From an uncultured Granulosicoccaceae bacterium (GTDB lineage Bacteria > Pseudomonadota > Gammaproteobacteria > Granulosicoccales > Granulosicoccaceae), in assembly GCA_938003855.1 (NCBI GenBank), contig CALKXD010000076.1, positions 1 through 39,727 of the forward strand: 39,727 nt of DNA. Reading direction: 5' to 3'. The translations under genes were made by a program, and so were the position numbers. The first letter of the stretch is position 1; every line of letters starts with the position of its first letter. The notes under the pieces are model-generated. The model saw nothing but the letters and a program-made list of their open reading frames with translations. It ran no database searches and was not told the origin of the DNA. Shown here piece by piece: positions 11,381-33,562 of this stretch.

Positions 11381-11381
11381 A

Positions 11382-13165: not shown

Positions 13166-13174
13166 CGTCTGCTC

Positions 13175-14177: not shown

Positions 14178-14203
14178 AAAGCCGGGGTAGCCCCGGCTTT
14201 TTT
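14178..14203 (-). terminator. Terminator-like hairpin inside the importer operon
   Basis: AAAGCCGGGG (14178-14187) and CCCCGGCTTT (14191-14200) form a 10-bp stem around TAG. On the minus strand the stem is followed by GTTTTA, a partial T-tract. On the plus strand it is followed directly by TTT. Its place between the binding-protein gene and the permease gene fits partial termination, giving more binding protein than permease, as known for several importer operons. Confidence 0.65.
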
Positions 14204-14251
14204 CGCAACAGAATCTCGTACCGATTAACCAGTTAAACCAAACGCTCGCTG

Positions 14252-19001: not shown

Positions 19002-20342
19002 CTAGCCAAGGTCGAAATATCTTTCCAGCTCGACGTCCGGCACCTTTGCAGCGAAGGCATCCAACTGGCTTTGGCGCGTGGCGGTGTAGGCCTGTATAAA
19101 TTCATCACTTAACCAATCTTTCGCAAAGTCACTGGCACCAAGTCGCTCAATGGCTTCTGGCATTGAACGCGCAAAGTCAGGGCCACCCCCTTGCGTGTAT
19201 CCATTGCCCTGCGTTTCTTCGCAGGGTTCTGTTTTGTTAATGATGCCATCAATACCGGCGGCAACCGTCGCCGCGACAGTCAGGTAGGGATTCGTATCAG
19301 CACCGGGCAGGCGGTTTTCAACACGCATAGATGCCGGGCTGTGGCCAACCGCCCTGAAGCAGGTAGTCCGGTTTTCATAGCCCCAGGTTAATCCGGGTGG
19401 TGCAAACGTACCTTCAGCAAAGCGCCGGTAGGAGTTAACCGTTGGCAGAAACAGCAACGACAAATCACCCAGGTGCTTTTGCAGACCACCAATGAAATGG
19501 CGGAACGTTGTCGACATTCCATGATCATTACGCTGATCATGGAACACTGATTCACCATCGTTGTTTTTCAGCGACACATGTATATGGATTGACTGACTGT
19601 CAGCGGTCTCGCTCCAACGCGGCATATAGGTAATGCACTTATCTTGTCGCGCAGCCAGCACCCGCAGGAAGTTTTTCAACAACACCAATTGATCGGCAGG
19701 CTCCAACCCTTCACCCGCAGCAATGCAGGCCTCCATGAATCCGCCACCGATTTCTTCATGCATTTTGGCTAGATTGATCCTCAGGTGCTCACACATTTGC
19801 GACACCGATTCATACCAGTCAGTCTGCTGCACCTGATAAATTAATAGATCATGGCTGTTGTGCAGGGTCGCCGTGTGCAGATTTCTATAACCCTTCGCAC
19901 GCGCAGTTAAATCAGTTTCGTTGAACAGCGTATACTCTAACTCGAGCCCATAACGTGGCTGATAACCCGCATCAGCCGCACGCCCGAGGACGCGTTGCAG
20001 CAGGGACCTTGGGCAGAGCTTGGCTGTGTCCCCGGTATAATTCGACAGCACCAGCAGATCATGCCCCGGCTTTGACCACGGCAGACGCCGCACGGTAGCC
20101 GGATCTATTAGCAGAGGATCATCGTGAAAGTCGGCGGTGTCATCCGAGATTCCCGGTATCGTGCCAATAACATCAGTGGGGTCGAGTGCCAATGTCACTG
20201 GTGCCATGCCCATACCATCACTGGCGATACCGGCAAGACTTTTAATAGAGACCATTTGCCCGCGCAATAGCCCGTTAGTGTCGGTCATGGCCACTGTAGC
20301 GTAGCGGCTGTCTTTGTTTTTCAGGTAGTCTTCAATAGTCAT
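19002..20342 (-). CDS. Glutamine synthetase family protein, PuuA/gamma-glutamylamide synthetase-like
   Basis: An ATP-dependent ligase of 446 residues with the glutamine synthetase fold. The N-terminal beta-grasp includes VAMTDTNGLLRGQMV. The catalytic part has the metal-binding GLELEYTLF, the EEIGGGFMEACIAAGEGLEPADQ segment, HIHVSL, and GWGYENRTTCFR- and RVENRLPGADTNPYL-type segments for phosphate and glutamate. It resembles PuuA-type enzymes, which join glutamate to an amine. Relatives act early in aniline (TdnQ) and isopropylamine (IpuC) degradation. It is the last gene of the catabolic block, and its ATG overlaps the TetR stop by one base. Ligation of glutamate to an amine substrate or intermediate is the likely role; the amine is unknown. 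Confidence 0.88.
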   Translation of the reverse strand: MTIEDYLKNKDSRYATVAMTDTNGLLRGQMVSIKSLAGIASDGMGMAPVTLALDPTDVIGTIPGISDDTADFHDDPLLIDPATVRRLPWSKPGHDLLVLSNYTGDTAKLCPRSLLQRVLGRAADAGYQPRYGLELEYTLFNETDLTARAKGYRNLHTATLHNSHDLLIYQVQQTDWYESVSQMCEHLRINLAKMHEEIGGGFMEACIAAGEGLEPADQLVLLKNFLRVLAARQDKCITYMPRWSETADSQSIHIHVSLKNNDGESVFHDQRNDHGMSTTFRHFIGGLQKHLGDLSLLFLPTVNSYRRFAEGTFAPPGLTWGYENRTTCFRAVGHSPASMRVENRLPGADTNPYLTVAATVAAGIDGIINKTEPCEETQGNGYTQGGGPDFARSMPEAIERLGASDFAKDWLSDEFIQAYTATRQSQLDAFAAKVPDVELERYFDLG

Positions 20343-21022
20343 CAGTCACCGGTCTTTCGATTGCAATCGATGGAAAGTAGCTTGAGTTGCTTTAAGTCAT
20401 CAGGGACTTGGGTTGAATAAGCCTTAATAAATACAGTCAGGCCATTAGTGATGTACCTGGCAAGCGAGTTTGTATCCGGTATATTATCCGGCATATACAA
20501 AGCCTGAGTGCGCGGCGCTGACAAAATAAGCCCCCATAGATCCTGGGCCGCTAGCTCGGAGTCATCAAACTGAAGCCGGCCTTGAACACGCTGTGATTCA
20601 AGGTAGGTAATCATGCCGCGTAATAGAAAGTCCGGCCCGGCAGCCTGATAAGCCGGGCCAATCTCCGGAAAGCGCTTGACCTCTGCGATCACCAATCGCG
20701 CCAGTGACAGCATATCGGGCCGCAATACAAAGGCGGCATAGGTCCAGCCAAACGCATGCAGTTGCGAAACCATATCCGTGTGAACCGGTTCGGTGAAAGC
20801 TTTTAGCATATGCTCACGCTGGGGTACCAGCATGGCCGTAAACAACTGCTCTTTTGCACCAAAGTACTGGTACAGGGTTGGCTTTGACACCTTCGCTTCA
20901 ACGGCAATGGCGTCCATAGTGGCCGCGCTATAGCCAGTCTCCGAAAACACCTTGAGCGCAGCATCGAGAATTCGCTTTTCCTTGGCAACCCGGTTTTGCT
21001 CGCGTTTATGCAGCGCTGTCAT
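20342..21022 (-). CDS. TetR family transcriptional regulator
   Basis: A 226-residue repressor-type protein. The N-terminal helix-turn-helix (about 14-60) reads RILDAALKVFSETGYSAATMDAIAVEAKVSKPTLYQYFGAKEQLF, followed by a helical ligand-binding and dimerisation domain. Its ATG overlaps the hydrolase stop by four bases and its stop overlaps the next ATG by one, so it is embedded in the operon. It may regulate this operon, with the dyad at 24774-24801 as one candidate site. That assignment is inference. Confidence 0.92.
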   Translation of the reverse strand: MTALHKREQNRVAKEKRILDAALKVFSETGYSAATMDAIAVEAKVSKPTLYQYFGAKEQLFTAMLVPQREHMLKAFTEPVHTDMVSQLHAFGWTYAAFVLRPDMLSLARLVIAEVKRFPEIGPAYQAAGPDFLLRGMITYLESQRVQGRLQFDDSELAAQDLWGLILSAPRTQALYMPDNIPDTNSLARYITNGLTVFIKAYSTQVPDDLKQLKLLSIDCNRKTGD

Positions 21023-22326
21023 GTTGGCATCCGTGCCAGAAAAGACAACAGCCGGGCGTTGAAGTCATCGGGTTGCTCGACATTGCACACGTGTCCGGCG
21101 TCAGAGATAACTTCAAACTGCACATCTGCGTACGGGTCACCGTGTTTCGCAACATCAGTGACAATACGCTGCGCCACACTGCGGATTTCAGCGGGCGGTG
21201 CCAGCCGGTCGTACTCGCCGGTCATCATCAGCACGGGCATGGTCAGGCAGGAGAAATCGAATCGCTCAGGCGGATGAGTAAAGCAGTTCAACGCGTCCCT
21301 GTAGGTAGCGGGGGTGATCGCCGCCATAGATTGATGCAGTTTTTTCCTGCTGGCTTTATCTGCATCGGGACCGGAAATAATATCCACCACATCAGCCGCA
21401 AAGTCAGCCGGTGCAAGCCCGGCATTCAAGGGGGCTTCACGACTCTGCCGGAAGGCGTCACGCGCTTGCGATGTCGCCTCGGACATACCGGTACAACCAC
21501 CGGACAATATCAGCCCTGCGAGTTTGTCTGCAAACCGCATCGCAAACGAGGTGGCGATCCAGGCCCCGTAAGACAAACCACACAGCACCAGTTTCTCAGC
21601 CCCCAGTTGCTCGCAGACACGGAGGATATCGGCGCAGTAATCATCCACTGTTGTCTGCCTCGAACCCGCCTCGCTGTCACCATACCCTCGCAAATCCAGC
21701 GCTGCGGTGCGCATGATGCTGCCAGTCACCGCTAATTGCGCATCCCAGTTGCAGCGACTGCCACCAATGCCGTGCAAAAAAAGACACAACGGACCATCAC
21801 CCCGCGGTGAAACAGAAACCGTCAGCGCCGGAGTGCCGCTGATTTTCAGCGGACTGGACTTCTGACCGGCATTAAACCTAGCGCCATCCTGCGCTGCCGG
21901 TGGCGCTGCACTAAGGCCTGCCAGCGCATCGATACCCGCATGGAATATTGCAGCGCTGCCGGTCGCAATCTCCTTTGCACGCGCCCCGGTTGCCGATACT
22001 TCTGCAGTCCAGCTGATTATACTGCCACCATTGTCCGTGCTTGTTATGTCGATACCGGCGTGGTAGCTGTCTGCGCCCTCTATACCGCTAAGATGCGAAT
22101 ACTGAAGACGGCGGTCAGTATCACTGCGATACGTTAACTGCTCGCGATACCGTGTTGTTTCACCACGCACCGTAAAAGCCCTGATCACTCGCTGCTGCTG
22201 ATCAGTCTCTGCATGGATAGTCTCTATAAGCGGGTGCCAGCCAACACAAAACTGCCGCACAACTCCCCATACCGCATCAGCACTTGAATCAAGGTGACGG
22301 GTGACTTCGACTTTTTCCTGCGGCAT
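21019..22326 (-). CDS. SRPBCC domain - alpha/beta hydrolase fusion
   Basis: A two-domain protein of 435 residues. Residues 1-145 form an SRPBCC/polyketide-cyclase-like helix-grip domain, starting KVEVTRHLDSSADAVWGVVRQF. Residues about 165-430 form an alpha/beta hydrolase with the oxyanion segment FLHGIGGSRCNWD, nucleophile elbow CGLSYGAW, acid in MMTGEYDRLAPP and His in ISDAGHVCN. SRPBCC domains bind hydrophobic ligands, so the N-terminal part may hold or present the substrate cleaved by the hydrolase. The start at 22326 lies just after the acyl-CoA dehydrogenase stop; the 26 additional upstream in-frame codons overlap that gene and look non-homologous. The substrate is unknown. Confidence 0.85.
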   Translation of the reverse strand: MPQEKVEVTRHLDSSADAVWGVVRQFCVGWHPLIETIHAETDQQQRVIRAFTVRGETTRYREQLTYRSDTDRRLQYSHLSGIEGADSYHAGIDITSTDNGGSIISWTAEVSATGARAKEIATGSAAIFHAGIDALAGLSAAPPAAQDGARFNAGQKSSPLKISGTPALTVSVSPRGDGPLCLFLHGIGGSRCNWDAQLAVTGSIMRTAALDLRGYGDSEAGSRQTTVDDYCADILRVCEQLGAEKLVLCGLSYGAWIATSFAMRFADKLAGLILSGGCTGMSEATSQARDAFRQSREAPLNAGLAPADFAADVVDIISGPDADKASRKKLHQSMAAITPATYRDALNCFTHPPERFDFSCLTMPVLMMTGEYDRLAPPAEIRSVAQRIVTDVAKHGDPYADVQFEVISDAGHVCNVEQPDDFNARLLSFLARMPT

Positions 22327-22330
22327 CGCG

Positions 22331-23635
22331 CTAGCCGGCCAGCACGTCGGCATAACCACGCCACAGTGAATTGCGTGAGGTGTCGGGATCACCGGGTGCG
22401 TCATCGAGCTCGTCGGTGTCGTAGAGCGTCAGTACAGACAGGTAGTCTTCCATAATCTCAGAGGTGTAGGGCAGCATCAGCGCACCACAGCGACTGTCGC
22501 GATAGATCCGCTCAAGCGGCAGCGACTTCAACATCGCCTGACCGCCGCAGGTTCGAATGGCCATGGCGGCAATTTCCTGCACACCTTCCATCACATTGTA
22601 TTGAGCCGCATACATCCGCAACACCTGCCCTTTTGACGGAAAGCTCTGCGCCTCCATAAACACCTGCCACCACAGCGCACGCATCGCCGCAAGTTTCGAA
22701 TACATTTGACCGACCGTATGGCGCTTGGTGGCATACATGCGACGATCAGCCGCTGGTTGGCCGGGCACCTCACCACGTAAATACGCCACGGTAAAATCAA
22801 ACGCGCCCTGTGCAACGCCCATATAGGTCGGCGACAGCGTTGCCATCATGTGTGGCCAGTGCGGCAGTGTTTTTATAAAAATACCGCGCGGCATCATGAG
22901 ATCCTGCTCTGTGACGAATACATCTTTCAGCACCAGATCACGACTGTTAGTCCCGCGCATGCCGAGCGGATCCCACTCGCCCTGCACCGACAGGCCCACA
23001 GCATCTTTACTGACCACAAATATCATGGTGTCTTCGTGGCGAGGTTCTGTATCCGCAAAGTGCTCGGTACAGACGATTGAGTAATAGTCGCAGTAACCGG
23101 CAAGACTGGCGAATTTCTTAAATCCGTTAATCTTCCAGCCTCCCGCTACTTTTTCACAGCGCGTTTGCGCCGGTTTTGATGTCCAGTTCTGACCAGCTTC
23201 CGAAATTGGCTGGGAGTAGATACCCTGCTCTTCTACCGCGCGGCGAAACTGTCGCTCACGCAATGGCGCAAACTGTGCGCGTTCGTCATCGGTCAGATGC
23301 GGCATCTCATACATAAAGCGTGACCACATCATTGACGAGTTATGCATATTAAAGGTAAGTGCCGTCGCCCCGCAGTACTTGCCGATCTCGGCCCCCGCCA
23401 TGGCATATTCCCCCAGGCTGAATCCGTGCCCGCCAAATGCCGTGGGTACCGTCAGTGTCAGCAAGCCTTCGGCTGCCAGGTCGTGGTAATTATCGACAGG
23501 AAAGCTCGCGCCGTCATCGATTGACTTTGCTCTATCGACAAAGCGTGTTCGACCGAGTTCATTAATACGGTTGAGCACGACCGCCACCTCCGGCCGAATA
23601 CGCGACAGATCATAATAGTCGCCAATGTCACTCAT
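22331..23635 (-). CDS. Acyl-CoA dehydrogenase family flavoprotein
   Basis: An FAD-dependent enzyme of 434 residues with all three acyl-CoA dehydrogenase domains: the N-terminal helices (LAAEGLLTLTVPTAFGGHGFSLGEYA), the middle beta domain (SQPISEAGQNWTSKPAQTRCEKVAGGWKINGFKKFAS) and the C-terminal helices ending LPYTSEIMEDYLSVL. The ATG at 23635 has AGGAGA nine bases upstream; an earlier frame start at 23686 lacks support. In this setting it could desaturate a CoA ester. Some family members instead act as flavin monooxygenases or nitroalkane-oxidase-like enzymes on non-CoA substrates. No CoA ligase gene is present in the block, which leaves this open. Confidence 0.9.
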   Translation of the reverse strand: MSDIGDYYDLSRIRPEVAVVLNRINELGRTRFVDRAKSIDDGASFPVDNYHDLAAEGLLTLTVPTAFGGHGFSLGEYAMAGAEIGKYCGATALTFNMHNSSMMWSRFMYEMPHLTDDERAQFAPLRERQFRRAVEEQGIYSQPISEAGQNWTSKPAQTRCEKVAGGWKINGFKKFASLAGYCDYYSIVCTEHFADTEPRHEDTMIFVVSKDAVGLSVQGEWDPLGMRGTNSRDLVLKDVFVTEQDLMMPRGIFIKTLPHWPHMMATLSPTYMGVAQGAFDFTVAYLRGEVPGQPAADRRMYATKRHTVGQMYSKLAAMRALWWQVFMEAQSFPSKGQVLRMYAAQYNVMEGVQEIAAMAIRTCGGQAMLKSLPLERIYRDSRCGALMLPYTSEIMEDYLSVLTLYDTDELDDAPGDPDTSRNSLWRGYADVLAG

Positions 23636-23700
23636 AGTAATTCTCTCCTGATATTCTATACGCTTGCGGGCGGGCCGGATAACCAACAGACGCCAGTCGA

Positions 23701-24750
23701 CTATCGAGCCAGTTCACCCTGCAGTACCCCCTCTACCACCACCGCCTCGCCATCAAGTTCAATGGTGCAGGCACGCATCGGCAGATCAAAGTGGCCTTCG
23801 GTAAAACGACCCGCGTACTGGTTCGCTCCGGTTGACCAGAGGAAGTTACCGGCCCACGCTCTAAATTCAACCGCCTGCATATCGCGTTTATCGTAGAGCG
23901 CCCCGGACACCCAGCGCGCATCCGGATTCATACCCCATCCGACGTGCGAAAATCCATACGCTTTAGGATCGTCCCAGGCGGCCATGTAATCGCGAAACAA
24001 CTCGGCATCGAGCCCGCGGCCTTTTATTTCGGTGACAAAGTCGTTTTCGACAGTGAAGTCAATTTGACTCGACAGGTAGGTTTTGAAAGTCAGGTTCATG
24101 TCGCCGACATCCATCACAATGCGACCATTGACGGTGTTCGGTCCCGGGAACGCCAAACACAACCCCCCCGGCCAATGCGCGACGTGACCCGGTGTTGTCC
24201 CGAAACCCGCGGTGCCACCACAAGGCGCGTCGCGTATATCTATAGTGAGATCGGTACCGGCTTTGGAGGTCACTCTCATCTGCGATGCCGCCTGCAACAT
24301 CTGCACACCCAGATCAACCTTCGGCCCGAGCCAGGCCTTCGGTTCAGTGCGCTCCAGTATCTCAGGGTGCTCGTTGGTCACCACCAGAATGCGGCCACCG
24401 GCGGCCTCAACCTCGGGCCACTCCGGGGAGTGAATCATGCCCTCTACAGTGCAGTCGACGACGATCTCACATTGCTTCATTGCTTCAATCGCAGCACGGT
24501 TGTGCTGTATGGCTAGTGACGTGCCGGTACCTTTCACCGGCACTGGCGCGGTCTGCGGCGGGCTTGGCATCTTCAACATGCAGAAATCAGCACCGAGATC
24601 GTACAATGCCAGTTCCGCCAGATGAACCAGTACCGGCCGCGACTGTGTCTCGGATATCAGCGCGACTGTGGAGCCCTGCTGAATTCCATTGAGCGCAAAC
24701 ACACGACGAAACGACGCCAGCCATTTTCCTTCAATACGTTCCTGCAGCAT
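23701..24750 (-). CDS. NicX-like protein (2,5-dihydroxypyridine 5,6-dioxygenase family)
   Basis: A 349-residue protein closely matching the length and sequence plan of NicX, the Fe(II) enzyme that opens 2,5-dihydroxypyridine to N-formylmaleamate in nicotinate degradation. The family resembles M29 aminopeptidases. The three NicX iron ligands appear conserved: His269 in FSHVGWGMNPDARW, and His320 and Asp322 in EGHFDLPMRACTIELD. Other matching segments are RVTSKAGTDL, VMDVGDMNLTFKTY and FLWSTGANQYAG. The ATG at 24750 has AGGGG upstream; a GTG at 24774 would add eight residues. The full nic set (nicC, nicE, nicF) is absent, so the substrate may be a different hydroxypyridine or related ring. Confidence 0.82.
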   Translation of the reverse strand: MLQERIEGKWLASFRRVFALNGIQQGSTVALISETQSRPVLVHLAELALYDLGADFCMLKMPSPPQTAPVPVKGTGTSLAIQHNRAAIEAMKQCEIVVDCTVEGMIHSPEWPEVEAAGGRILVVTNEHPEILERTEPKAWLGPKVDLGVQMLQAASQMRVTSKAGTDLTIDIRDAPCGGTAGFGTTPGHVAHWPGGLCLAFPGPNTVNGRIVMDVGDMNLTFKTYLSSQIDFTVENDFVTEIKGRGLDAELFRDYMAAWDDPKAYGFSHVGWGMNPDARWVSGALYDKRDMQAVEFRAWAGNFLWSTGANQYAGRFTEGHFDLPMRACTIELDGEAVVVEGVLQGELAR

Positions 24751-24773
24751 GCCAAGCCCCCTGATCACATGCA

Positions 24774-24801
24774 CAATACTTTACTACACAGTTTAGTATT
24801 G
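24774..24801. promoter_or_regulatory. Nested dyad upstream of the NicX-like gene
   Basis: CAATACT (24774-24780) and AGTATTG (24795-24801) are perfect inverted arms with 14 bases between them. Inside lies a second dyad, TACTA-N7-TAGTA (24782-24798), in an alternative register. It occupies the 100-base gap between the GNAT stop and the NicX-like ATG. This is a plausible operator (for example for the TetR protein of the same block) or an mRNA hairpin. Confidence 0.4.
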
Positions 24802-24850
24802 AGGAAGTCCGATTCGTGGTCACTCTACATTCGGCAGGTAACGCTCCGCT

Positions 24851-25282
24851 CTAGTTTAAAACAAGCACGTGCGATGCACTGCTATCACTGATCGCCGAAA
24901 ATCCAAGTAACTCATAAAAGCGGCCGGTGTTTTTGTCCGGTACCCGCAAACGTATTCGCGAAAAGTGATTCGCTGAGTGCTCAATGCATTGCCGAACCAA
25001 CGCCGCGCCGATTCCGCCGGCACGGAACTCCGGCAGTACGTACAGATGGCGAAGCCGGGCCACGCTGCGATCACAGACATAGGGATCGAGGTTGATACCA
25101 CAGACACCAACGGTTCGGTTGTCACTGCTCGCAGTGAAAAAAACCTCGCCGTCGCGATCAAAGCAATTACTCTGCTGCCGCCACTCGTCAGTTAACCGAC
25201 GAACAAAAACAAAACCCTCGGCCTCGCTTTGCAGTACCAGGTCGTCAATATCGGCCGGCAGTCCGGTGACAGTCTGGATCAT
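24851..25282 (-). CDS. GNAT family N-acetyltransferase
   Basis: A 143-residue acetyltransferase. The acetyl-CoA pyrophosphate loop is RAGGIGAALV in the segment LRHLYVLPEFRAGGIGAALVRQC (about 80-102). The C-terminal segment RLRVPDKNTGRFYELLGFSAI is the typical last strand-helix. It starts 20 bases after the upstream hydrolase stop, within the catabolic operon. It could acetylate an amine intermediate or be a bystander; the sequence does not decide. Confidence 0.87.
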   Translation of the reverse strand: MIQTVTGLPADIDDLVLQSEAEGFVFVRRLTDEWRQQSNCFDRDGEVFFTASSDNRTVGVCGINLDPYVCDRSVARLRHLYVLPEFRAGGIGAALVRQCIEHSANHFSRIRLRVPDKNTGRFYELLGFSAISDSSASHVLVLN

Positions 25283-25302
25283 CGTAACACCGCGACAATC
25301 GC

Positions 25303-26229
25303 CTACGGCTGTTCGGTGGTCGCATTCACAACTGGATGGCGAATCGTGCCGATGCCTTCCACTGCCGCCACTACAACATCACCCGGCCATAACCACTCCT
25401 GCGGTGATCGCCCTGCACCTACACCTTCCGGGGTACCGGTGGCAATGATGTCTCCGGGTTCGAGTGTCATACCGGTGGAGATATCTGCTATCAGATGATC
25501 TACTTTAAACAACATGTTACGGGTATTGCCACGCTGTTTTTCGACACCATTGACGGTAAGCCAAAGCACCAGATTGTGCGGATCGGGGATTTCATCCGCC
25601 GTGACAATACAGGGACCGAACGGCGCATAGGTGTCCTGCCCTTTGGAGAATATCCACTGACCGGAGCGACGGTTATCACGCGCTGAAACATCGATCATGA
25701 CGGAGTATCCAAACACGTGGTCAAGTGCATCCTGTTTGCGAATCTTCTTTGCCGATGACCCGATAATAACCGCGAGTTCAACTTCCCAATCGAGCTGCGC
25801 GGTCATGTTGGCATCGTGGTCTATCGCACCCCCCGGGCCGATGACACTGGTCGGCGGCTTGGTGAACAGCACCGGCTTGTCCGGCAGATCTTTTGATGTA
25901 TCAAGAGTTTTAGCGCTTTCAGCCACGTGTTCCACGTAGTTCAGGCCAATGCCCCAGATATTCTTACGCGGCCGCGGGATCGGTGCCAACAACGTAACAT
26001 TCGACAACGCTTCAGCGGTGTGGATGGGCGGGGTGTCTCCAGCCTGATCAACTAATGCCTGCAACGCAGCAAGACCCGGTCGCCCGCTATCAATCAACTC
26101 GAGCATCGAGCAGGGCATTTCTTCACCATTTGCCGCCCCCAGATCTTCAACGTCGATAACAAGGTCATTCACGACAGCACCCAGTCGCGCCTCTGCTTCA
26201 ACGCCAGAGCGATAAGTCACTAGTTTCAA
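25303..26229 (-). CDS. Fumarylacetoacetate hydrolase family protein, TTG start
   Basis: A 308-residue C-C bond hydrolase or isomerase. The FAH core holds the metal site in LDWEVELAVIIG (two Glu) and VMIDVSARD (Asp), the substrate segment SKGQDTYAPFGPCIV, and TGTPEGVGAGR. Family members cleave acylpyruvates such as fumarylpyruvate or maleylpyruvate, the product line of gentisate-type ring opening. The gene follows a gentisate-dioxygenase-like gene, so acylpyruvate cleavage to pyruvate plus a dicarboxylate is the likely step. The start is TTG at 26229 with AAGGA six bases upstream, and MKLVTYRSG is a normal family start. Confidence 0.9.
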   Translation of the reverse strand: MKLVTYRSGVEAEARLGAVVNDLVIDVEDLGAANGEEMPCSMLELIDSGRPGLAALQALVDQAGDTPPIHTAEALSNVTLLAPIPRPRKNIWGIGLNYVEHVAESAKTLDTSKDLPDKPVLFTKPPTSVIGPGGAIDHDANMTAQLDWEVELAVIIGSSAKKIRKQDALDHVFGYSVMIDVSARDNRRSGQWIFSKGQDTYAPFGPCIVTADEIPDPHNLVLWLTVNGVEKQRGNTRNMLFKVDHLIADISTGMTLEPGDIIATGTPEGVGAGRSPQEWLWPGDVVVAAVEGIGTIRHPVVNATTEQP

Positions 26230-26240
26230 AGTTATTCCTT

Positions 26241-26264
26241 AAAATATAGGGCAAAATATAGGGC
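26241..26264. repeat. Tandem 12-bp duplication before the FAH-family start
   Basis: AAAATATAGGGC occurs twice head to tail (26241-26252, 26253-26264), between the bicupin stop and the FAH-family TTG start, just upstream of its ribosome site. A perfect tandem copy suggests a recent slippage duplication. It adds an AT-rich spacer that may influence translation. Confidence 0.85.
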
Positions 26265-26268
26265 GGGT

Positions 26269-27393
26269 TCAGGCAGAGACTGGTTGATAACCATTGTTAT
26301 CGGAAAACGCCTGCTCCCTGTAGAAATTAAACGCACGCATTACCGGCAGATCCGACAGACAGAACAGGCAGGCGTCGTCAGTGTCGGACGCATTGACGTG
26401 CTCGTGCCAGGCCCACGAAGGCACACAGAAGATGTCTTTTTCACGCCAGTCATAGCGCTTGCCATTAATGATTGAATGTCCCTCACCTTTCGCCACATGA
26501 TAAAGATAGCTGCCCGTATGGCGATGCGCCTTGGTATGTTCTGACGCCCGAAGCAACTGCATGGACGCGCCCATGGTCTGCATCACAGGACCGTTGCTGG
26601 TCGGGTTGACGTACTCCATTAGTACTCCATCGTATGGCGATCCATCCGTACACGCGGCATACTTTAAAAGAGCCTCATAAGTTGGCAGCCATTCGTATTT
26701 ATACATCGGGCTATACGCTTCTGACCATTTACCATTGGCCGGTGTAAGACCGGGGTTGCCCCAGGTTTTGGTGGTATCGTCGACGGCATAACCTACCGCC
26801 TGGGTAAGATCAGGGTGAACCTCAAAAAAACCCGCTTCCATGGCGTTAACAAATGGAATATCGAGACCATCCTGCCAGATACAGGGTGTACCGGTCGGCT
26901 CAACACCGTGCTCATGCCATGTGCCATTAGGCGTGAGTACAAAGTCGTTTTCACCGAGCGTCATTTTATGACCATCGACCACCGTGAAAGCACCCTCACC
27001 TTCCATAATAAAGCGTATGGCACTGGCTGAGTGACGATGCGCCGCCGCATCTTCACCGGGGTTCATCACCTGCAGACCGGCATACAGCCAGCCCACTGCT
27101 GCGGACACATCTGACCGACCCGGGTTGTTTAGATAAATCACCCGTCGACCGGCCTTTTCCGCGGTCACCAGGTCTACCGACCGCAACACATGCTCACGAA
27201 GATCAGCGTATCGCCAAACCACCGGAATCGATTGCGACTTCGGCTCCCAGGGCTCTATCTTGTTGGCGACCGTCCACAGTGCGCCAGCGTGGTAGTTATC
27301 AAGCTCATCGTAGTAGGCCAATAGCTCGGGCGTATCTTCGACATTGGCTCTGCCAACGACGTCTTCCCGATGATTCCCCGGTTCCTTGCCCAT
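26269..27393 (-). CDS. Gentisate 1,2-dioxygenase-like bicupin
   Basis: A ring-cleaving Fe(II) dioxygenase candidate of 374 residues with two cupin domains. The N-terminal cupin (about 95-185) has the metal ligands of gentisate dioxygenases: His119 and His121 in AAAHRHSASAIRF, and His160 in PNGTWHEHG. The C-terminal cupin (about 285-350) has KAHRHTGSYLYHV and PSWAWHEHV, so histidines are retained there too. Gentisate enzymes give maleylpyruvate; relatives act on 1-hydroxy-2-naphthoate, salicylate or aminosalicylate. GGAGG lies eight bases before the ATG. An FAH-family gene follows 39 bases later, matching ring opening then acylpyruvate hydrolysis. The exact aromatic substrate is unknown. Confidence 0.88.
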   Translation of the reverse strand: MGKEPGNHREDVVGRANVEDTPELLAYYDELDNYHAGALWTVANKIEPWEPKSQSIPVVWRYADLREHVLRSVDLVTAEKAGRRVIYLNNPGRSDVSAAVGWLYAGLQVMNPGEDAAAHRHSASAIRFIMEGEGAFTVVDGHKMTLGENDFVLTPNGTWHEHGVEPTGTPCIWQDGLDIPFVNAMEAGFFEVHPDLTQAVGYAVDDTTKTWGNPGLTPANGKWSEAYSPMYKYEWLPTYEALLKYAACTDGSPYDGVLMEYVNPTSNGPVMQTMGASMQLLRASEHTKAHRHTGSYLYHVAKGEGHSIINGKRYDWREKDIFCVPSWAWHEHVNASDTDDACLFCLSDLPVMRAFNFYREQAFSDNNGYQPVSA

Positions 27394-27585
27394 CTAACGG
27401 CCTCCGCATGTGGTGTTATGGGACAGCAAGTATTTTCAGGGGTAAGAATGAATGAATGTTTTTTTTATTTCAATCTTGATTTACCACAGCCGACTCTCAA
27501 CAGCCGAACTCCAGTGCCGTATGGTCACGCCTATGTCGTGACCAGATGGCTTACCTTTTTATCGAGCAGCAATCAGGCAAAACCG

Positions 27586-29067
27586 TCAGCGCATCACAAA
27601 CGGATTGGCCATCGGTTTATCTGAGGTGTTTATCCAGGTGGTTTTTGTGCGGGTGTAATCCATGATCGAATCCATCCCTGCCTCACGACCGTACCCCGAC
27701 TGGTTGTAGCCACCAAAGGGCGCAATCGGCGACACGGCACGGTAGGTATTGACCCAGCAAATCCCGGAGCGCAAGCGGTTGGAAACCCGATGCGCGCGAG
27801 CAACGTTTCCGGTAAACACCCCCGACCCCAGACCGAAATCGCTGTCATTGGCAAAGCCAATCACCTGTTCCTCCGTATCGAACGGCACCAATGACATCAC
27901 CGGGCCGAACATTTCTACTTTCAGCGTTTCGACACTGGTATCACGGCACTCAACCAGTGTCGGGTTGAAATAATTGCCGTTCAGGTTGTCGGTTCTTGAA
28001 CCACCGGCCCTGATGACCGCACCCTGTGCAACAGACTTTTTTAAGGTCGCTTCGATACGTTCAATCTGCGCGTTAGTACACAGCGGACCGACATGGGTAT
28101 TGGCGTCCTGAGGATCTCCAACCACAATGTGCCGCGAGCGTTCGGCAACTTCTTCAACAATCCGATCAAAGATTCCACGCTGCACAAACCCGCGTGATCC
28201 CGCCACACACGATTGTCCGGATGCCCCCCAATTGCCCGCGATAAGCCCGTTCACAGCATTTTCTATATCGGCATCGTCAAAAACGATGATTGGCGACTTA
28301 CCACCCAACTCAAGGGATGTCACCGCAAAATTCTCTGCCGAGTTACGAACAACATGCCGTGCGGTTTCAGGTCCGCCGGTAAACGCTATTCTGTCGACGT
28401 CCGGGTGACGGGTCAGTGGTATCGCACAGTTCTCTGCATCGCCGGTGATCACAGAGATAACACCGGGTGGAAAACCGGCCCTCTCTATAAGACGGGCAAA
28501 CTCAAACATAGGTGCCGGGGCGAGTTCAGAGGCCTTCAATACCACCGTACACCCAGCGGCCAGGGCCGGCCCCACCTTGGTGGCGGTCAAGAACATTTGC
28601 GCATTCCACGGGACAACAGCCGCGACCACGCCTATCGGCATACGCCGGGTGAACACGTGCATATCCGGTTTATCGATTGGCAGTACCGATCCTTCGATCT
28701 TGTCGGCTAGCCCTGCAAAGTAACGGTAGTAGTCGCCAACATAGCGCGATTGAGAAATAGTCTCCGTTGCAAGCTTACCGCTGTCGCTTGTTTCAACCCG
28801 ACCGATAGTCTCGGCGGATTGGTCGATCAGATCAGCCAGCCTGTACAGCAGTTTGCCCCGGTTGGTTTGCGTCATGTCGCGCCAGACCGGATTATCAAGC
28901 GCCTGTCTTGCTGCAGTCACCGCACGGTGCACGTCGTTCTCTGATGCACAGGCAAACGTCGCCCAGGCTTGAGAGGTCGCCGGATTGATACTTTGGTCGG
29001 TCTGCCCCTCGCTGCCCTCGCACCAGGCACCGTCAATATACAGTTGATAATGGGGAAGTGAACTCAT
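27586..29067 (-). CDS. NAD(P)-dependent aldehyde dehydrogenase
   Basis: A full-length aldehyde dehydrogenase of 493 residues. Key residues are Asn155 in VVPWNAQ, Lys178 in VVLKASELAP, Glu253 in LELGGKSP and Cys287 in GQSCVAGSR, with the FAFTGG-type motif here as IAFTGGPETA. The ATG at 29067 is preferred over an in-frame TTG at 29094, which has no ribosome site. In the catabolic block it would oxidise a semialdehyde from ring opening or from the LLM monooxygenase step, as in pathways for hydroxymuconic or formamido-type semialdehydes. The substrate is inferred only from neighbours. Confidence 0.93.
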   Translation of the reverse strand: MSSLPHYQLYIDGAWCEGSEGQTDQSINPATSQAWATFACASENDVHRAVTAARQALDNPVWRDMTQTNRGKLLYRLADLIDQSAETIGRVETSDSGKLATETISQSRYVGDYYRYFAGLADKIEGSVLPIDKPDMHVFTRRMPIGVVAAVVPWNAQMFLTATKVGPALAAGCTVVLKASELAPAPMFEFARLIERAGFPPGVISVITGDAENCAIPLTRHPDVDRIAFTGGPETARHVVRNSAENFAVTSLELGGKSPIIVFDDADIENAVNGLIAGNWGASGQSCVAGSRGFVQRGIFDRIVEEVAERSRHIVVGDPQDANTHVGPLCTNAQIERIEATLKKSVAQGAVIRAGGSRTDNLNGNYFNPTLVECRDTSVETLKVEMFGPVMSLVPFDTEEQVIGFANDSDFGLGSGVFTGNVARAHRVSNRLRSGICWVNTYRAVSPIAPFGGYNQSGYGREAGMDSIMDYTRTKTTWINTSDKPMANPFVMR

Positions 29068-29107
29068 GGTGGTATCCAGTGGTAAATTAGACAATCTATA
29101 TTTTCGA

Positions 29108-30145
29108 TCAGCTATTGAAGGCAGGCATTACATCATTTATGAAACGGGTCAGTGAGGCACGCTTTCTGTCGATAGACATCCCGCTGTCGATCCAGAATGA
29201 AAACTCATCATAGCCGAGGTCCTCGTAACGCTTGATCTGATCAATAACCTGTTGCGCCGTGCCTATCGTCAGATCCCGCAGCATGTTTTCCGGCGCCATC
29301 ATTGTATTGTCGCGTATATCCTGCTCGCTCAAGGGGTCTAAATGCCCTTGCTGTACGGTTCGTTTGTTCTGAAACCACGCACCGAAATAGTTATAAAACC
29401 GGCTCAGCTCGACAGCCCCGGCCTGTACATCATCACTGTCTTTTGCCACATAGGTATGGTGCAACAGCATAATCTTCGGTCGTGCACCACGGTAGCTGCT
29501 GCAGGCATCGTTAAAACGCTGCATCAGACTGGCTATTTCATCATAGCCCTGCCACAACGGAGTAACCTGTACATTAAAACCATTGTGTACGGCAAATTCG
29601 TGGCTGTTCGGGTCACGGGCTGCAATCCATATCGGCGGACCACCCTCTTGCAGCGGCTTAGGTGCGGAAGTTGTTGACGGGAAGTTATAGAACTCCCCCT
29701 GATGCGCACAATCCCCTTGCCACAGCTGCCTTAACAGAGGGGTGGTTTCACGCATTCTCTGGCCCGCCTCCCAGGCATCAAGCCCGGGCATCATGCGTTC
29801 GTACTCATATGAGTAAGCGCCGCGGGCAACCCCCAGCTCAAGCCGTCCGCCGGTTACCAGGTCCGTCATCGCTGCCTCGCCGGCCAGTCTTATCGGGTGC
29901 CAGAACGGCGCGATGATGGTACCGGTACCCAGCTTGACATTCCGGGTATGGCGCGCCACATCAGCAATAGTAATAAACGGATTCGGCGCGATGGTAAATT
30001 CCATACCATGGTGCTCACCAGTCCAGATAGCACGCATACCGCCTTCATCAGCAAGTGTGCACAAGCTCAGGAAATCTTCGTAAAGCTGGCTATGATTCTG
30101 AGTCTCGCTCAGGCGCTCCATATGAGTAAACAGAGAGAATTTCAT
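29108..30145 (-). CDS. LLM flavin-dependent monooxygenase (luciferase-like)
   Basis: A luciferase-like monooxygenase of 345 residues. The TIM-barrel starts MKFSLFTHMERL, continues with AIWTGEHHGMEFTIAPNPFITIADVARHTRNVKLGTGTIIAPFWHPIRLAGEAAMTDLVTGGRLELGVARGAYSYEY (the bacterial-luciferase signature region), and ends with a TIGTAQQVIDQIKRYEDLGYDEFSFW flavin-site segment. AGGA sits seven bases before the ATG, and the upstream gene, a flavin reductase, ends three bases away. The pair forms a natural two-component monooxygenase. Comparable pairs start degradation of pyridine and other N-heterocycles by oxygenating and opening the ring. Confidence 0.92.
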   Translation of the reverse strand: MKFSLFTHMERLSETQNHSQLYEDFLSLCTLADEGGMRAIWTGEHHGMEFTIAPNPFITIADVARHTRNVKLGTGTIIAPFWHPIRLAGEAAMTDLVTGGRLELGVARGAYSYEYERMMPGLDAWEAGQRMRETTPLLRQLWQGDCAHQGEFYNFPSTTSAPKPLQEGGPPIWIAARDPNSHEFAVHNGFNVQVTPLWQGYDEIASLMQRFNDACSSYRGARPKIMLLHHTYVAKDSDDVQAGAVELSRFYNYFGAWFQNKRTVQQGHLDPLSEQDIRDNTMMAPENMLRDLTIGTAQQVIDQIKRYEDLGYDEFSFWIDSGMSIDRKRASLTRFINDVMPAFNS

Positions 30146-30148
30146 GGC

Positions 30149-31081
30149 TTAATCCTGTTTTTCCGCAAGCGGGTGTATTTCACCTGATTCAGCACTGCCG
30201 ACGTACAGGCCAAATTGCCTGATACGGCTCTCTGCGACAAATCGGGCCATCATGGTTGCCAGCGCGTGATCATTGAACGGCAGGTTCTTCAGCGACTCAA
30301 TGGTTTCAAACGATCCCAGCTCACCGGTGTCGGCCGTCGTCGCCCGGGCGCGTATATAGGTGTAACGTTTTTGCCGGGTGCTATCTTCGTACACCGAATA
30401 GACAGGCCCCAGATCCACTGTTAAACCCAACGCATGAAAATGTTTTTGCAGTGAGCTTCGAGCACCACTACCTGCCGTTTGTGCAATACAGGGCAGTGAT
30501 GCACCGTCATTATCAGTCGCCACCAGAATACGGCCGTTACATTCCACAATAGCACCCGCCACACTTTCATAACCGGCTAGTCCGGGAGCATCAGCCTGCT
30601 GTTCTTTACTTAAGCTGAAATACCCGTTACTGCAGTAGCCAAGCCCTTGCCGGTTACTGCCGGATAATGCCAATACTTCACCAACCAAAACCAGATGATC
30701 ACCGGCAACATGACGCTGGTGCACCCGGCAGCTGAAGGTGGCAACCGCACCGTCAATTAACGGCACACCATGCATACCCTGATGCCACGGCGTGTTGTCG
30801 AACCGGTCGTCCACACTGCTGGCAAACTCGTTTGACACCGCTTCCTGTCCTTCAGCCAGAATGCTTACACCAAAATGTCTGACGGTATTAAAGAGTCCAA
30901 ATGACGACAAGTGGTTACCCGGACAAACCAGTAACAATGGCGGATCTATAGAGACTGATGTAAACGAGTTTGCGGTAAAACCTGCCAGTTCGCCGCTGTC
31001 AGAGCGCGCTGTCACGACAGTCACACCCGTCATGAAACTACCAAACGCACGTCGCAGGGTTTGCGCATCAAACTGACTCAT
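30149..31081 (-). CDS. Flavin reductase with degenerate Nudix-like C-terminal domain
   Basis: A 310-residue fusion. Residues 1-165 are a flavin reductase-like FMN-binding domain (FGSFMTGVTVVTARSDSGELAGFTANSFTSVSIDPPLLLVC; GDHLVLVGEVLAL) that supplies reduced flavin. Residues about 172-250 read like a Nudix fold (VAGAIVECNGRILVATDND, LQKHFHALGLTVDLGPVYSVYED, RYTYIRAR). The catalytic Nudix box is lost: the REUxEE position reads QKHFHA. The tail may sense a ligand or regulate rather than hydrolyse. The ATG overlaps the upstream hydrolase stop by four bases. It is the evident partner of the LLM monooxygenase encoded next. Confidence 0.88.
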   Translation of the reverse strand: MSQFDAQTLRRAFGSFMTGVTVVTARSDSGELAGFTANSFTSVSIDPPLLLVCPGNHLSSFGLFNTVRHFGVSILAEGQEAVSNEFASSVDDRFDNTPWHQGMHGVPLIDGAVATFSCRVHQRHVAGDHLVLVGEVLALSGSNRQGLGYCSNGYFSLSKEQQADAPGLAGYESVAGAIVECNGRILVATDNDGASLPCIAQTAGSGARSSLQKHFHALGLTVDLGPVYSVYEDSTRQKRYTYIRARATTADTGELGSFETIESLKNLPFNDHALATMMARFVAESRIRQFGLYVGSAESGEIHPLAEKQD

Positions 31082-31902
31082 ACAACACCGCCTGTTTTAA
31101 CTGAATGCCCGGGTAAAAAGCACCTCGTCAGCGCTTGCACGACCTGATCACCGTGCGTCATCGACATCATATGGCGCGCGCCCTCCACAATGTAGCATCG
31201 CGACCCGGGCACCAGCTGGCTCATGCGTTGCGACATTTCGGGTGTCGAATTCGGCTCGAGTGATCCGGTCATAAACAACGCCTGACAGGTTACTTTTGTC
31301 AACTGTTGATCAGTCGGCGCATCAGCCCTCGCAAAGGCTCTATAAGCGTCACGATACCCGATCGGATCCGCCGCATTCAGCCAGACCCGACAGGCCTTAC
31401 TGGCATCGGCATTGATACCTTCAGGCGCTGCGCCAAACCAGCGTTCAAGGGTTGCTGCAGGATCAGTCACCGGCGCAGAGTCGGTGGAGATGGCCTGTGT
31501 TAACTCAGCGACACGCGCATTGATCGCTGCCAGTGCTTCACTGGTACGCCGGTAGACTCCATTTAGTACGGCAATACCGGACACCTTTTTTTTGTAGCGC
31601 ACGGCCAGATCCAGGGCGATCAATGCCCCCATGGAATGCCCGACCACAATGGCCGGTCGAGCATCCGATAGCACTGCGGAAATCTGATCCGTATAGTCTG
31701 CCAAGTCGGGGTGATCGGCTTCGAGACGCGGACTGTTAGCATGCCCCGGCATATCTATTACCGTTAAAGAAAAGTGTCTGGCAAGCTGCGGTTCTATATT
31801 GATCCAGTAATCAGCGCGCATACCCACACCGTGGATCAACAGCATGGCTGGCCCGTTACCGTGGCAGCGACTGTTTATGTGTTCAACGCAGTAAGTAGTC
31901 AT
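31078..31902 (-). CDS. Alpha/beta hydrolase
   Basis: A 274-residue hydrolase. The oxyanion segment is LLIHGVGMRADYW, the nucleophile elbow VVGHSMGA has Ser90, and the late His is in EGARHMMS. The usual acid position reads GSLEPNS, with Glu where Asp is common. Size and motifs resemble NicD-type deformylases and meta-cleavage hydrolases. With a NicX-like and an LLM monooxygenase in the block, hydrolysis of an N-formyl or acyl ring-opened intermediate is plausible. It is coupled to the downstream reductase gene by a four-base overlap. Confidence 0.87.
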   Translation of the reverse strand: MTTYCVEHINSRCHGNGPAMLLIHGVGMRADYWINIEPQLARHFSLTVIDMPGHANSPRLEADHPDLADYTDQISAVLSDARPAIVVGHSMGALIALDLAVRYKKKVSGIAVLNGVYRRTSEALAAINARVAELTQAISTDSAPVTDPAATLERWFGAAPEGINADASKACRVWLNAADPIGYRDAYRAFARADAPTDQQLTKVTCQALFMTGSLEPNSTPEMSQRMSQLVPGSRCYIVEGARHMMSMTHGDQVVQALTRCFLPGHSVKTGGVV

Positions 31903-31967
31903 CGGTGCTATTCGACAGGTTCGGTGGTTTTAACCAGGTATCTCATCCGTTTGCAATCGTGCTTGCG

Positions 31968-32567
31968 TTAGATGCCAGCCGGGTTATCAACATCGTGCTC
32001 CAAGTCTTTTAGATCCTGATAGCGGTCACCGATGCGATGGTGCGGCCTGCCGCCGCTGGCCCCTCCAAGTACCAGGACTAGCTCATCTGCTCTGGGTGCG
32101 TCATTTATCGAAAACTGAATGGTCAGGTAATGCGAGCGACGCCCGGCGTCGTGCTTATCCATTAACGGCACTGCAATCGGCGCATTAGCCGGTCCACGGG
32201 TATTGCTGAAGGCAAGATAACTGCTCGCCGCCACGGCAGTTCGGTAAAAATTGCCGAAACGCAGTGTGTGAATAAGCGCGGAGGCATGTTCAATCTCGCC
32301 GTCCAATCCGACCACCGCCGCCTTGCCATAGGCTTCAATTTTATCGCCTCCTCCGGCCAGCGCGATAATACGTTGCGTCAGCGCTTCACCCAGGAGCGGA
32401 CCGTAGGCCATTATCTCAGGCTTCAGATCTTCAACGAACCGACCCGCCCAGGGGTTGGTCACGACCACCGCTACGGCAAACGTGCGCCAGGGTTCGGCGG
32501 CGGGCTTAAAACCCTCGATATGTATCTCTTCATCAAAGGTGACGAATTTGCGTATTTCAGGCTTCAT
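31968..32567 (-). CDS. DUF1185 (amino acid synthesis family) protein
   Basis: A 199-residue protein of the DUF1185/PF06684 type, recognisable from EIRKFVTFDEEIHIEG at the start, NPWAGRFVEDL, EAYGKAAVVGLDGEIEHASALIH, and DAPRADELVLVLGGASGGRPHHRIG near the end. The biochemical role of the family is not established, but members often sit beside LLM monooxygenase and flavin reductase genes. It is the first gene of the catabolic block. The ATG at 32567 matches the family start; a TTG at 32633 would add an atypical tail reaching towards the LysR promoter. Confidence 0.85.
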   Translation of the reverse strand: MKPEIRKFVTFDEEIHIEGFKPAAEPWRTFAVAVVVTNPWAGRFVEDLKPEIMAYGPLLGEALTQRIIALAGGGDKIEAYGKAAVVGLDGEIEHASALIHTLRFGNFYRTAVAASSYLAFSNTRGPANAPIAVPLMDKHDAGRRSHYLTIQFSINDAPRADELVLVLGGASGGRPHHRIGDRYQDLKDLEHDVDNPAGI

Positions 32568-32651: not shown

Positions 32652-32679
32652 TTGACATTAGCTTTACTAATGTTATGTT
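32652..32679 (+). promoter_or_regulatory. LysR-type dyad and promoter between divergent genes
   Basis: ACATTAG (32655-32661), CTTTA, CTAATGT (32667-32673) is a perfect 7-bp dyad with the LysR T-N11-A pattern. CTAAT is the core recognised by E. coli GcvA, and the gene starting beside it is GcvA-like. A -35 box TTGACA (32652-32657) overlaps the dyad, with a possible TATGTT -10 at 32674-32679, so autoregulation of the LysR gene fits. The same dyad lies 88 bases upstream of the divergent DUF1185 start. Confidence 0.6.
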
Positions 32680-33562
32680 TATGGCAATGTCCCGTTCACT
32701 ACCTCCACTCGGCTGGTTCCGCGCTTTTGAGTGCGCCGCCACTCGATTAAGCTTCACCGCCGCCGCAGAGGAACTGGGATTAACCCAATCCGCTGTCAGC
32801 CAGCAGATTCGATCCCTGGAATCCCGGCTCGGTTGCCGCCTATTTGTGCGTAAGCATCGCGGCATTGCGCTAACCGATGACGGCCGTAAATTACTGCCTG
32901 ATGTCGCCCGCGCAATCGAGGCCATTCGCACCGCGACCGCGCCATTCGATTCTCAGGCCGACCCCGATGTACTGACTGTCGCGACCAGTGTCAGCGTCGC
33001 CCAGTGGTATCTCGCGCCGGAACTGCACAGGTTCGTCGCGCAACACGATGATTTACAAGTGCGCCTGCTGACGTCGGTATGGCCAGACGAATTATCCGAT
33101 ACGACTGACGTGCAAATTCGCTTTGGCCCTGCCAGGGATAATGACGCCGGGGAAGTTCCACTCGGGGACAATCAACTGATACTGGTCGCTTCACCTGCGC
33201 TATACGGGCCTGAAAAAAACAGCTCTGTAACAAGCGAACAACTAAAACAGTATCCGTTAATTCAGGCTGTCGGTACGTCAGATACCTGGGCACACTGCGC
33301 CAGGCATTTCGGTCTCGTCGATCACCACCGGCCGACGTTGTTTGTTGACACCCACGGACTGGCCGTCGACTTTGCCGTAGCCGGTTCAGGTGTCGCGCTA
33401 ACGAGTAAGTTAATCGCAACACCCGCTATCCGTAAAGGGCATCTGGTGCAAATCAATCCCGTGTCAATCAACGCCACCGACGGCTTTTTCATTGCCGTGA
33501 CATCACAGCGGCGTGCCACTCTTGCAAGACAATTCATCGACTGGCTGCTTGGCGAACTCTAA
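32675..33562 (+). CDS. LysR family transcriptional regulator, GcvA-like
   Basis: A 295-residue regulator. The N-terminal helix-turn-helix (about 8-68) reads LPPLGWFRAFECAATRLSFTAAAEELGLTQSAVSQQIRSLESRLGCRLFVRKHRGIALTDDG, in the style of GcvA. The effector domain (about 95-290) includes VATSVSVAQWYLAPELHRF. In-frame ATGs lie at 32675, 32681 and 32687. If the promoter proposed beside it is right, translation probably starts at 32687. It is divergent from the 13.5-kb catabolic block and is the best candidate for its activator. Confidence 0.92.
   Translation: MFMAMSRSLPPLGWFRAFECAATRLSFTAAAEELGLTQSAVSQQIRSLESRLGCRLFVRKHRGIALTDDGRKLLPDVARAIEAIRTATAPFDSQADPDVLTVATSVSVAQWYLAPELHRFVAQHDDLQVRLLTSVWPDELSDTTDVQIRFGPARDNDAGEVPLGDNQLILVASPALYGPEKNSSVTSEQLKQYPLIQAVGTSDTWAHCARHFGLVDHHRPTLFVDTHGLAVDFAVAGSGVALTSKLIATPAIRKGHLVQINPVSINATDGFFIAVTSQRRATLARQFIDWLLGEL

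Follow-up and report, generated by a model that had tools for sequence, protein, structure and literature searches.

The stretch of DNA analysed here, 39,727 nucleotides long and referred to as the window, is the entire contig CALKXD010000076.1 (C76) of an uncultured Granulosicoccaceae bacterium (assembly GCA_938003855.1; 6.8 Mb in 312 contigs, completeness 98.1 %, contamination 1.3 %). We found that its run of minus-strand genes at 19002-32567 consists of two head-to-tail blocks, block A (27586-32567, together with a divergent LysR gene) and block B (19002-27393), each of which is independently conserved. Block A is a known kind of operon, its gene set being, at the level of protein families, that of trigonelline (tgn) degradation minus a succinate-semialdehyde dehydrogenase, and it lies next to block B, a conserved ring-cleavage cluster with a dioxygenase from a NicX subfamily that lacks the substrate contact Glu177. 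We put at about 60 % the probability that the region holds a trigonelline/homarine-type operon beside a separate aromatic route, acting through the reactions and on the substrates that we infer below.

Two independently conserved gene blocks

Thirteen open reading frames (ORFs), overlapping or closely spaced and all on the minus strand, are present at 19002-32633 in the ORF list and its translations, as a preliminary description of this DNA had stated. Family profiles (Pfam/NCBIfam) agreed with glutamine synthetase (GS), TetR, Polyketide_cyc2 plus alpha/beta hydrolase, ACAD, GNAT, FAA_hydrolase and Cupin_2, and Pfam assigned the block A proteins to Aldedh, Bac_luciferase, Flavin_Reduct, alpha/beta hydrolase and AA_synth/DUF1185. 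Together with matches in the PDB (7cn3 and 3bu7) these profiles upheld the families named in that description, which had nonetheless omitted the TetR gene inside the run and overlooked an N-terminal Polyketide_cyc2 (START-like) domain in an alpha/beta hydrolase of 461 aa. Orthologue starts moved five gene starts inward, to 32567 (DUF1185, the position already given in that description), ~29067 (aldehyde dehydrogenase, ALDH), ~24750 (NicX-like), ~23635 (ACAD-like) and ~22326 (START/hydrolase).

We surveyed named genomes for block A at the best 80 of 557 relatives of the LLM-class monooxygenase, 50 of which were full 21-kb loci and two shorter than 5 kb, counting matches to window genes at E ≤ 1e-8. 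The loci belong mostly to Rhodobacterales, with some from Granulosicoccaceae, Roseibium and others. DUF1185-hydrolase-flavin reductase-LLM-ALDH, in the order of the window, was found in 54 of the 80 and in 71 when the reductase was not counted. None of the 80 matched the NicX, bicupin, FAH, ACAD, TetR or GNAT genes of the window at that threshold, and the visible stretch ran 5 kb or more past the downstream side of the ALDH gene in 61 of the 76 loci that hold it. The START/hydrolase query matched 45 loci with 22-30 % identity, at the position of the block A hydrolase, and the GS query matched two (25-27 %). Within the phylum the LLM protein was matched in 23 of 398 genomes, its own included (E ≤ 1e-60), and 20 of the 22 others were mapped around the LLM gene. 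The order DUF1185-hydrolase-(flavin reductase)-LLM-ALDH is kept in 14 of these 20 loci, with the reductase matched in ten of the 14; the five genes are present in rearranged form in L062 and L065-L067, and L063 and L064 contain the LLM and reductase genes only.

Block B has the order bicupin-FAH-(GNAT)-NicX-like-ACAD-like-START/hydrolase-TetR-GS. In Aminobacter aminovorans pAA02 the corresponding genes are FCD regulator-bicupin-FAH-CN hydrolase-flavin reductase-NicX-like-ACAD-like-hydrolase-TetR-GS, after which come a fusion of flavin reductase and LysR substrate-binding domain and an amino-acid permease; the CN hydrolase of such relatives is of nitrilase type. L177 and L178 have the same set, and so has L183 except that no CN hydrolase was matched there; all three come from another class of the phylum. 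The congener Chromatiales bacterium AB1 (G758) carries bicupin-FAH-NicX-ACAD-START/hydrolase-GS with no TetR match, and Ensifer adhaerens carries NicX-ACAD-hydrolase-TetR-GS-flavin reductase-permease without the bicupin. The ACAD and START/hydrolase genes are found at all ten further loci in the NicX-like clade of the window, TetR at nine and GS at eight; an adjoining bicupin and FAH are present in five, absent from four (L013, L015, L165, L168) and cut by a contig end in one (L190). The GNAT gene had no match in the relatives' loci mapped, these ten included. The bicupin match of L183 (8916-10033) falls into two pieces meeting at 9059, a possible frameshift. At 27424-28602 of L164, flavin reductase and LysR substrate-binding domain are joined in one protein, which may be a substrate-gated reductase. 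Literature searches limited to open-licence papers turned up no published account of block B.

The clustering goes beyond chance, as blocks A and B each keep their gene order in distant genomes. The preliminary description had named independent scattering of the genes as the outcome that would count against a shared cluster; as far as this was checked, they move as blocks and not singly. Its suggestion of two fused routes holds for the gene blocks, which occur apart elsewhere.

Block A has most of the gene set of trigonelline degradation

The tgn genes of Acinetobacter baylyi were described by Perchat 2018, as cited in PMC8269262 and PMC7913881. Ring opening of trigonelline is ascribed in the literature to TgnA/TgnB, and TgnF is described as homologous to a protein of what was formerly the DUF1185 family (PMC7913881). 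Compared by family and not by sequence, block A shares with tgn an LLM oxygenase with its flavin reductase, an aldehyde dehydrogenase, an alpha/beta hydrolase and the DUF1185 protein TgnF, and differs from it in lacking an adjacent succinate-semialdehyde dehydrogenase. We take TgnA to be the LLM oxygenase, TgnC the aldehyde dehydrogenase and TgnD the alpha/beta hydrolase. The earlier claim that the genes match no complete pathway thus fails for block A, a kind of operon that the preliminary description had overlooked and whose gene set is that of tgn but for this one dehydrogenase. Residues of the flavin reductase beyond 157 matched no Pfam family.

On Sinorhizobium meliloti pSymA the same five genes are joined by an ABC transporter, a gene annotated as succinate-semialdehyde dehydrogenase and a GntR regulator, and Rhizobium laguerreae has the five-gene set with these same three additions. 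Presumably the trigonelline genes map to the symbiotic plasmid of S. meliloti. GntR stands beside the rhizobial set, whereas block A is accompanied by LysR and its LLM protein falls into a separate subclade. Among 105 loci tabulated by regulator, LysR accompanies an ALDH at least 65 % identical to that of the window in 66, GntR an ALDH of 40-65 % identity in 21 (five of them with succinate-semialdehyde dehydrogenase), and neither regulator was found in 18. An LLM tree of 42 rows, of which 12 (the window included) carry no regulator label, separates the 12 LysR-labelled from the 18 GntR-labelled rows by a single branch (99/96); this amounts to one change, and 0 of 500 shuffles scored as low. 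The window, which has LysR, lies on the LysR side.

A substituted pyridine, one of the compound types that the preliminary description had proposed for the whole region, is well supported as the substrate of block A; this substrate is likely to be trigonelline or homarine. The homarine system resembles block A in being marine and directed at an N-methylpyridine carboxylate. Homarine catabolism genes are the subject of a 2026 study by Ferrer-Gonzalez. A homarine operon reportedly comprises six genes and has a regulator. Beyond the core, the genes common around 68 block A loci include an ABC-transporter ATPase (13 loci) and four families (five or six loci each), and no mgd-like family stood out. 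The LLM monooxygenase, supplied with reduced flavin by its reductase, would open the pyridine ring of trigonelline or homarine directly; the ALDH would oxidise the resulting aldehyde, the alpha/beta hydrolase would cleave the enamide and the DUF1185 protein would assist, leaving a C4 or C5 acid and a methylated nitrogen.

A branched-chain-type ABC transporter of the window (10523-15505) has its counterpart in AB1 directly after a DUF1185-LLM pair, with 92-97 % identity, and is a possible importer for block A. Ahead of that AB1 pair (L071, 7374-9208) stand a GST-like gene and one whose protein looks, by eye, like the M29 type; BLAST at 1e-3 did not match this protein to the NicX of the window.

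A NicX-like dioxygenase without Glu177

The sole PDB match of the block B dioxygenase at E ≤ 1 is NicX (7cn3, E = 2.8e-57), to which it is homologous over residues 21-350. It had no match in Pfam or NCBIfam, and NicX from a complete nic cluster likewise had none in Pfam. According to structural work on NicX, iron is bound by H265, S302, H318 and D320 and the substrate is contacted by E177 and H189; Glu177 touches N1 and O1 of dihydroxypyridine, E177A retains 2.7 % of the activity, and no substrate other than 2,5-dihydroxypyridine is reported to be used (PMC7910607). We aligned the window protein with 26 relatives and five references of the NicX group (7cn3, L206, L207, L022, L023), the relatives excluding four same-genus matches, three plasmid matches and L191, a fragment at a contig end. 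The window, all 26 relatives and all five references keep R293 and the four iron ligands; H189 is conserved in every aligned row except L017, and H105 of 7cn3 also in the window protein. Position 177 is Glu in the five references and in none of the relatives, being Thr in the window and ten relatives, Val in 12, Ile in two, Ala in one and Asn in one. Glu308 is Tyr in the window and absent from all 26 relatives. Both Glu residues are kept in L206 and L207, complete nic clusters in which the neighbours are an FAD monooxygenase, an Asp/Glu racemase, a hydrolase and an isochorismatase-type gene. Where nic clusters have nicC, nicD, nicE and nicF, the window has an ACAD-fold protein and a START/hydrolase.

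In a NicX tree that contains long branches (L017, L022 and L023 among others), the five references stand apart from the other 27 rows (100/100), and the window is united with its ten closest relatives (100/100). The 16 relatives outside this clade mostly show a NicX-hydrolase-ACAD-CoA ligase unit, with ACAD in 13 and a CoA ligase in 13; L199-L201 have the NicX-like gene on the opposite strand, separated by some kilobases from the other genes of the unit. An ACAD-like gene shares the stretch with the NicX-like gene in 23 of the 26 relatives. Units of this NicX-like/hydrolase/ACAD-like/CoA ligase composition (L194-L203, L019-L021) come from several families and also occur as a separate NicX group in the window's genus. 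Public records call the NicX-like and ACAD-like genes 'peptidase M29' and 'acyl-CoA dehydrogenase', labels that are probably wrong for both.

The earlier statement that NicX acts on dihydroxypyridine should thus not be transferred to the window protein, which lacks the Glu177 that binds it. Because Glu177 is changed, a new substrate is predicted for the NicX-like subfamily, and the NicX-like Fe(II) dioxygenase would open a hydroxylated ring without the contact that Glu177 makes in NicX.

An ACAD-fold protein, a START/hydrolase and a bicupin-FAH pair

The neighbouring ACAD-fold protein had been described as an acyl-CoA dehydrogenase. In such enzymes the Glu of a GEGTSE-type segment is catalytic. 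The C-terminus of the block B protein reads ALMLPYTSEIM, as against the GEGTSEIL segment of 1ws9 (RI-GEGTSEIL) and RFMQPY in 3m9v, and we reject a true acyl-CoA dehydrogenase because the catalytic-Glu motif is absent. It shares with 3m9v, presumably KijD3, an RDxxxGxxMxPY-like C-terminal segment, and resembles the nitrososynthase 3mxl and DnmZ (4zxv) by score alone. A monooxygenase using reduced flavin is expected because its C-terminus has the 3m9v-like segment and not GEGTSE, and we regard the protein as probably a two-component flavin monooxygenase. With a flavin reductase it would hydroxylate a ring that is probably nitrogen-bearing. The hydrolase domain of the START/hydrolase is closer to the sister-group hydrolase (E ~ 1e-23) than to that of block A (1e-9) or to NicD (4e-4), and the protein would hydrolyse the product of the NicX-like ring opening.

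The best PDB match of the bicupin is 3bu7, 'Gentisate 1,2-dioxygenase' (GDOsp), with which it has in common the metal-binding HxH...H motifs and the FAH partner. It is 61.8 % identical to the Ruegeria pomeroyi megaplasmid bicupin, presumably the 3bu7 protein itself, and scores 309.7 bits against the 442.1 of the NCBIfam gentisate_1_2 equivalog cut-off. FAH adjoins the bicupin in all mapped bicupin loci but L173, the mapped set leaving out relatives at 36-38 % identity. Gentisate-type cleavage fits because the pair recurs in varied settings, beside salicylyl-CoA 5-hydroxylase, an Asp/Glu racemase (R. pomeroyi) or, in others, IOR genes. Unlike the gentisate route, the block B cluster has no maleylpyruvate isomerase, in line with the preliminary description. 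The bicupin and FAH hydrolase would cleave a gentisate-type ring and split it into pyruvate and a C4 acid.

The ligase described earlier as PuuA-type does belong to the GS family but scores 171 of the 650 bits set as cut-off for the NCBIfam gamma-glutamylputrescine synthetase equivalog. It may gamma-glutamylate an amine of the substrate or product; indole, aminopyridine or another amine are candidate substrates of block B.

Table 1 Features of the window (coordinates on the contig)
Feature	Coordinates	Strand	Evidence
Divergent LysR regulator	32675..33562	+	HTH_1 and LysR_substrate; divergent LysR near LLM in 62/80 loci
DUF1185/AA_synth protein (TgnF family)	31968..32567	-	PF06684, E = 1.8e-71; 74/80 LLM loci
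Alpha/beta hydrolase (putative TgnD-like role)	31078..31902	-	Pfam; 79/80 loci
Flavin reductase, 310 aa	30149..31081	-	PF01613, E = 2.9e-38, residues 14-157; near LLM in 59/80
LLM-class flavin-dependent monooxygenase (putative TgnA-like role)	29108..30145	-	PF00296, E = 7.4e-55; tree
Aldehyde dehydrogenase	27586..29067	-	PF00171, E = 4.2e-150; 76/80 loci; ATG at 29067 from orthologue starts
Gentisate-1,2-dioxygenase-type bicupin	26269..27393	-	3bu7, E = 2.7e-165; both HxH...H cupin motifs shared
FAH-family hydrolase	25303..26229	-	PF01557, E = 1.1e-70; adjoins bicupin in 18/19 loci
GNAT between FAH and NicX-like genes	24851..25282	-	PF00583, E = 1.2e-13
NicX-like Fe(II) ring-cleavage dioxygenase, Glu177 to Thr	23701..24750	-	PDB match, alignment, tree
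ACAD-fold protein, probably flavin-dependent monooxygenase	22331..23635	-	ACAD domains, PDB matches, C-terminal motif
START/Polyketide_cyc2 domain fused to alpha/beta hydrolase	21019..22326	-	Pfam; clade loci
TetR regulator	20342..21022	-	PF14246, PF00440; 9/10 clade loci
Glutamine-synthetase-family ligase	19002..20342	-	PF00120, E = 1.5e-82; 8/10 clade loci
Branched-chain-type ABC transporter (solute-binding protein, 2 permeases, 2 ATPases)	10523..15505	-	AB1 synteny

Other features of the window

A promoter and terminator scan gave 9 sites against 11.5 expected and 15 against 15.5, no better than shuffles; one promoter-like site (10/12, 32652-32679) overlaps the start of the LysR gene. Beyond that gene lie a thiamine pyrophosphate enzyme (34278-35927) that exceeds the NCBIfam cut-off of the unnamed subfamily PRK08266, and an MFS transporter (36008-37222), of which L178 has a homologue (42 %) close to block B. 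On the other side of the region are an ECF-type sigma factor and, next to it, a probable membrane protein without a Pfam match and with a putative anti-sigma role (15741-17059), an alpha/beta hydrolase fused to an OsmC-like domain (2375-3613), and at 6129-9564 an aldo/keto reductase, a second LLM monooxygenase and an enolase-superfamily gene. Counterparts of this aldo/keto reductase (61 %) and second LLM (78 %) are found near block A in L112.

Alternative readings of the region

Several observations weigh against a trigonelline/homarine-type operon beside a separate aromatic route. No second aldehyde dehydrogenase (TgnE) was found, there being one Aldedh among the 40 window ORFs scanned with Pfam, with the rest of the genome not searched. 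Within the window's block B there is no flavin reductase, the sole one found in the window being that of block A, and the CN hydrolase of some relatives is likewise missing there; the genome has a remote match only to this hydrolase (28 %, E = 5e-5) and to the R. pomeroyi Asp/Glu racemase (26 %, E = 3.6e-10). The PDB matches of the ACAD-like protein include true acyl-CoA dehydrogenases as well as ACAD-fold oxygenases. Two genomes of the window's NicX-like clade, G295 and G190, have the NicX block and are not among the four of 369 class genomes with the bicupin (E ≤ 1e-70); the bicupin is therefore not obligatory for the NicX route. A single supercluster in which blocks A and B serve one pathway would fit their lying on one strand with the ALDH and bicupin ORFs 192 bp apart, an adjacency that rests on this single contig. 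It is highly improbable and we reject it, as the blocks occur separately elsewhere. The NicX, bicupin, FAH and ACAD genes are missing from all 80 block A loci, and neither LLM nor DUF1185 was matched in the stretches for the ten other clade loci (L190 being a 5-kb contig). AB1 has its LLM gene and block B on separate contigs, both away from the contig ends, and the block A hydrolase, reductase and ALDH were not found in its 21-kb LLM stretch (L071); in the congener G747 no bicupin occurs in the 5.2 kb downstream of ALDH. The significant similarity to NicX and the full retention of its iron ligands could also point to a genuine nic pathway for 2,5-dihydroxypyridine, nicC, nicE and nicF then lying elsewhere. 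Glu177 and Glu308 are, however, lost from the window and every relative, the nic clusters L206 and L207 keep both beside different neighbours, and the tree parts the two groups at 100/100; such a route is very unlikely, and was rejected on Glu177 and the neighbour genes.

On the reading of a separate aromatic route, block B may itself be two funnels, because its NicX/ACAD/hydrolase core also exists without the bicupin. The core would then serve a hydroxylated N-heteroaromatic and the bicupin and FAH an ordinary gentisate route, for which we see a chance somewhat short of even. Bicupin-FAH pairs without NicX beside salicylyl-CoA 5-hydroxylase, IOR or Asp/Glu racemase genes are consistent with this, as are Shinella PSBB067, where both parts are on one replicon but far apart, and the loci with NicX/ACAD and no bicupin. 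Both parts nevertheless keep the same order in Aminobacter, L177, L178, L183 and AB1, and a gene order shared by five genomes suggests a shared purpose. Another reading is one linear route for a bicyclic N-heteroaromatic of the indole type. Hydroxylation would produce a compound resembling indoxyl, whose N-CH=C(OH) part would be cleaved in NicX fashion to an N-formyl aminobenzoate; the hydrolase would deformylate this, before bicupin/FAH cleavage of gentisate or 5-hydroxyanthranilate. The contiguity of both ring-openers in five of the ten other clade loci favours this, a different ring would suit the absence of Glu177, a residue in contact with N and O1 of the pyridine, and one report describes an indole-indoxyl-isatin-anthranilate-gentisate path in Alcaligenes In3 with its gentisate genes given as unknown (PMC6221969). 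We nonetheless judge it unlikely, with no adjoining bicupin in four of those ten loci (L190 ending at a contig edge), none at E ≤ 1e-70 in G295 and G190, the nitrilase-type CN hydrolase of relatives absent from the window's block B and the GS ligase left unexplained. Unlikely, too, is a broader proposal in which the block B NicX-like proteins and their mostly CoA-ligase-linked sister group would form a new Fe(II) dioxygenase subfamily without Glu177, working with the ACAD-fold monooxygenase and the hydrolase on a ring other than dihydroxypyridine, for example of indoxyl type; block B would channel the product into gentisate-type cleavage, giving two successive and mechanistically different ring openings.

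Implications

Block A adds marine gammaproteobacteria to the holders of a trigonelline/homarine-type operon; its subclade is linked to LysR and stands apart from the GntR-linked rhizobial one. This bears on which organisms consume N-methylpyridine osmolytes at sea. Block B brings to light a widespread subfamily within the rare NicX class. Its NicX-like protein, together with the conserved ACAD-fold protein and the hydrolase, makes up a three-gene unit that is open to expression and assay.

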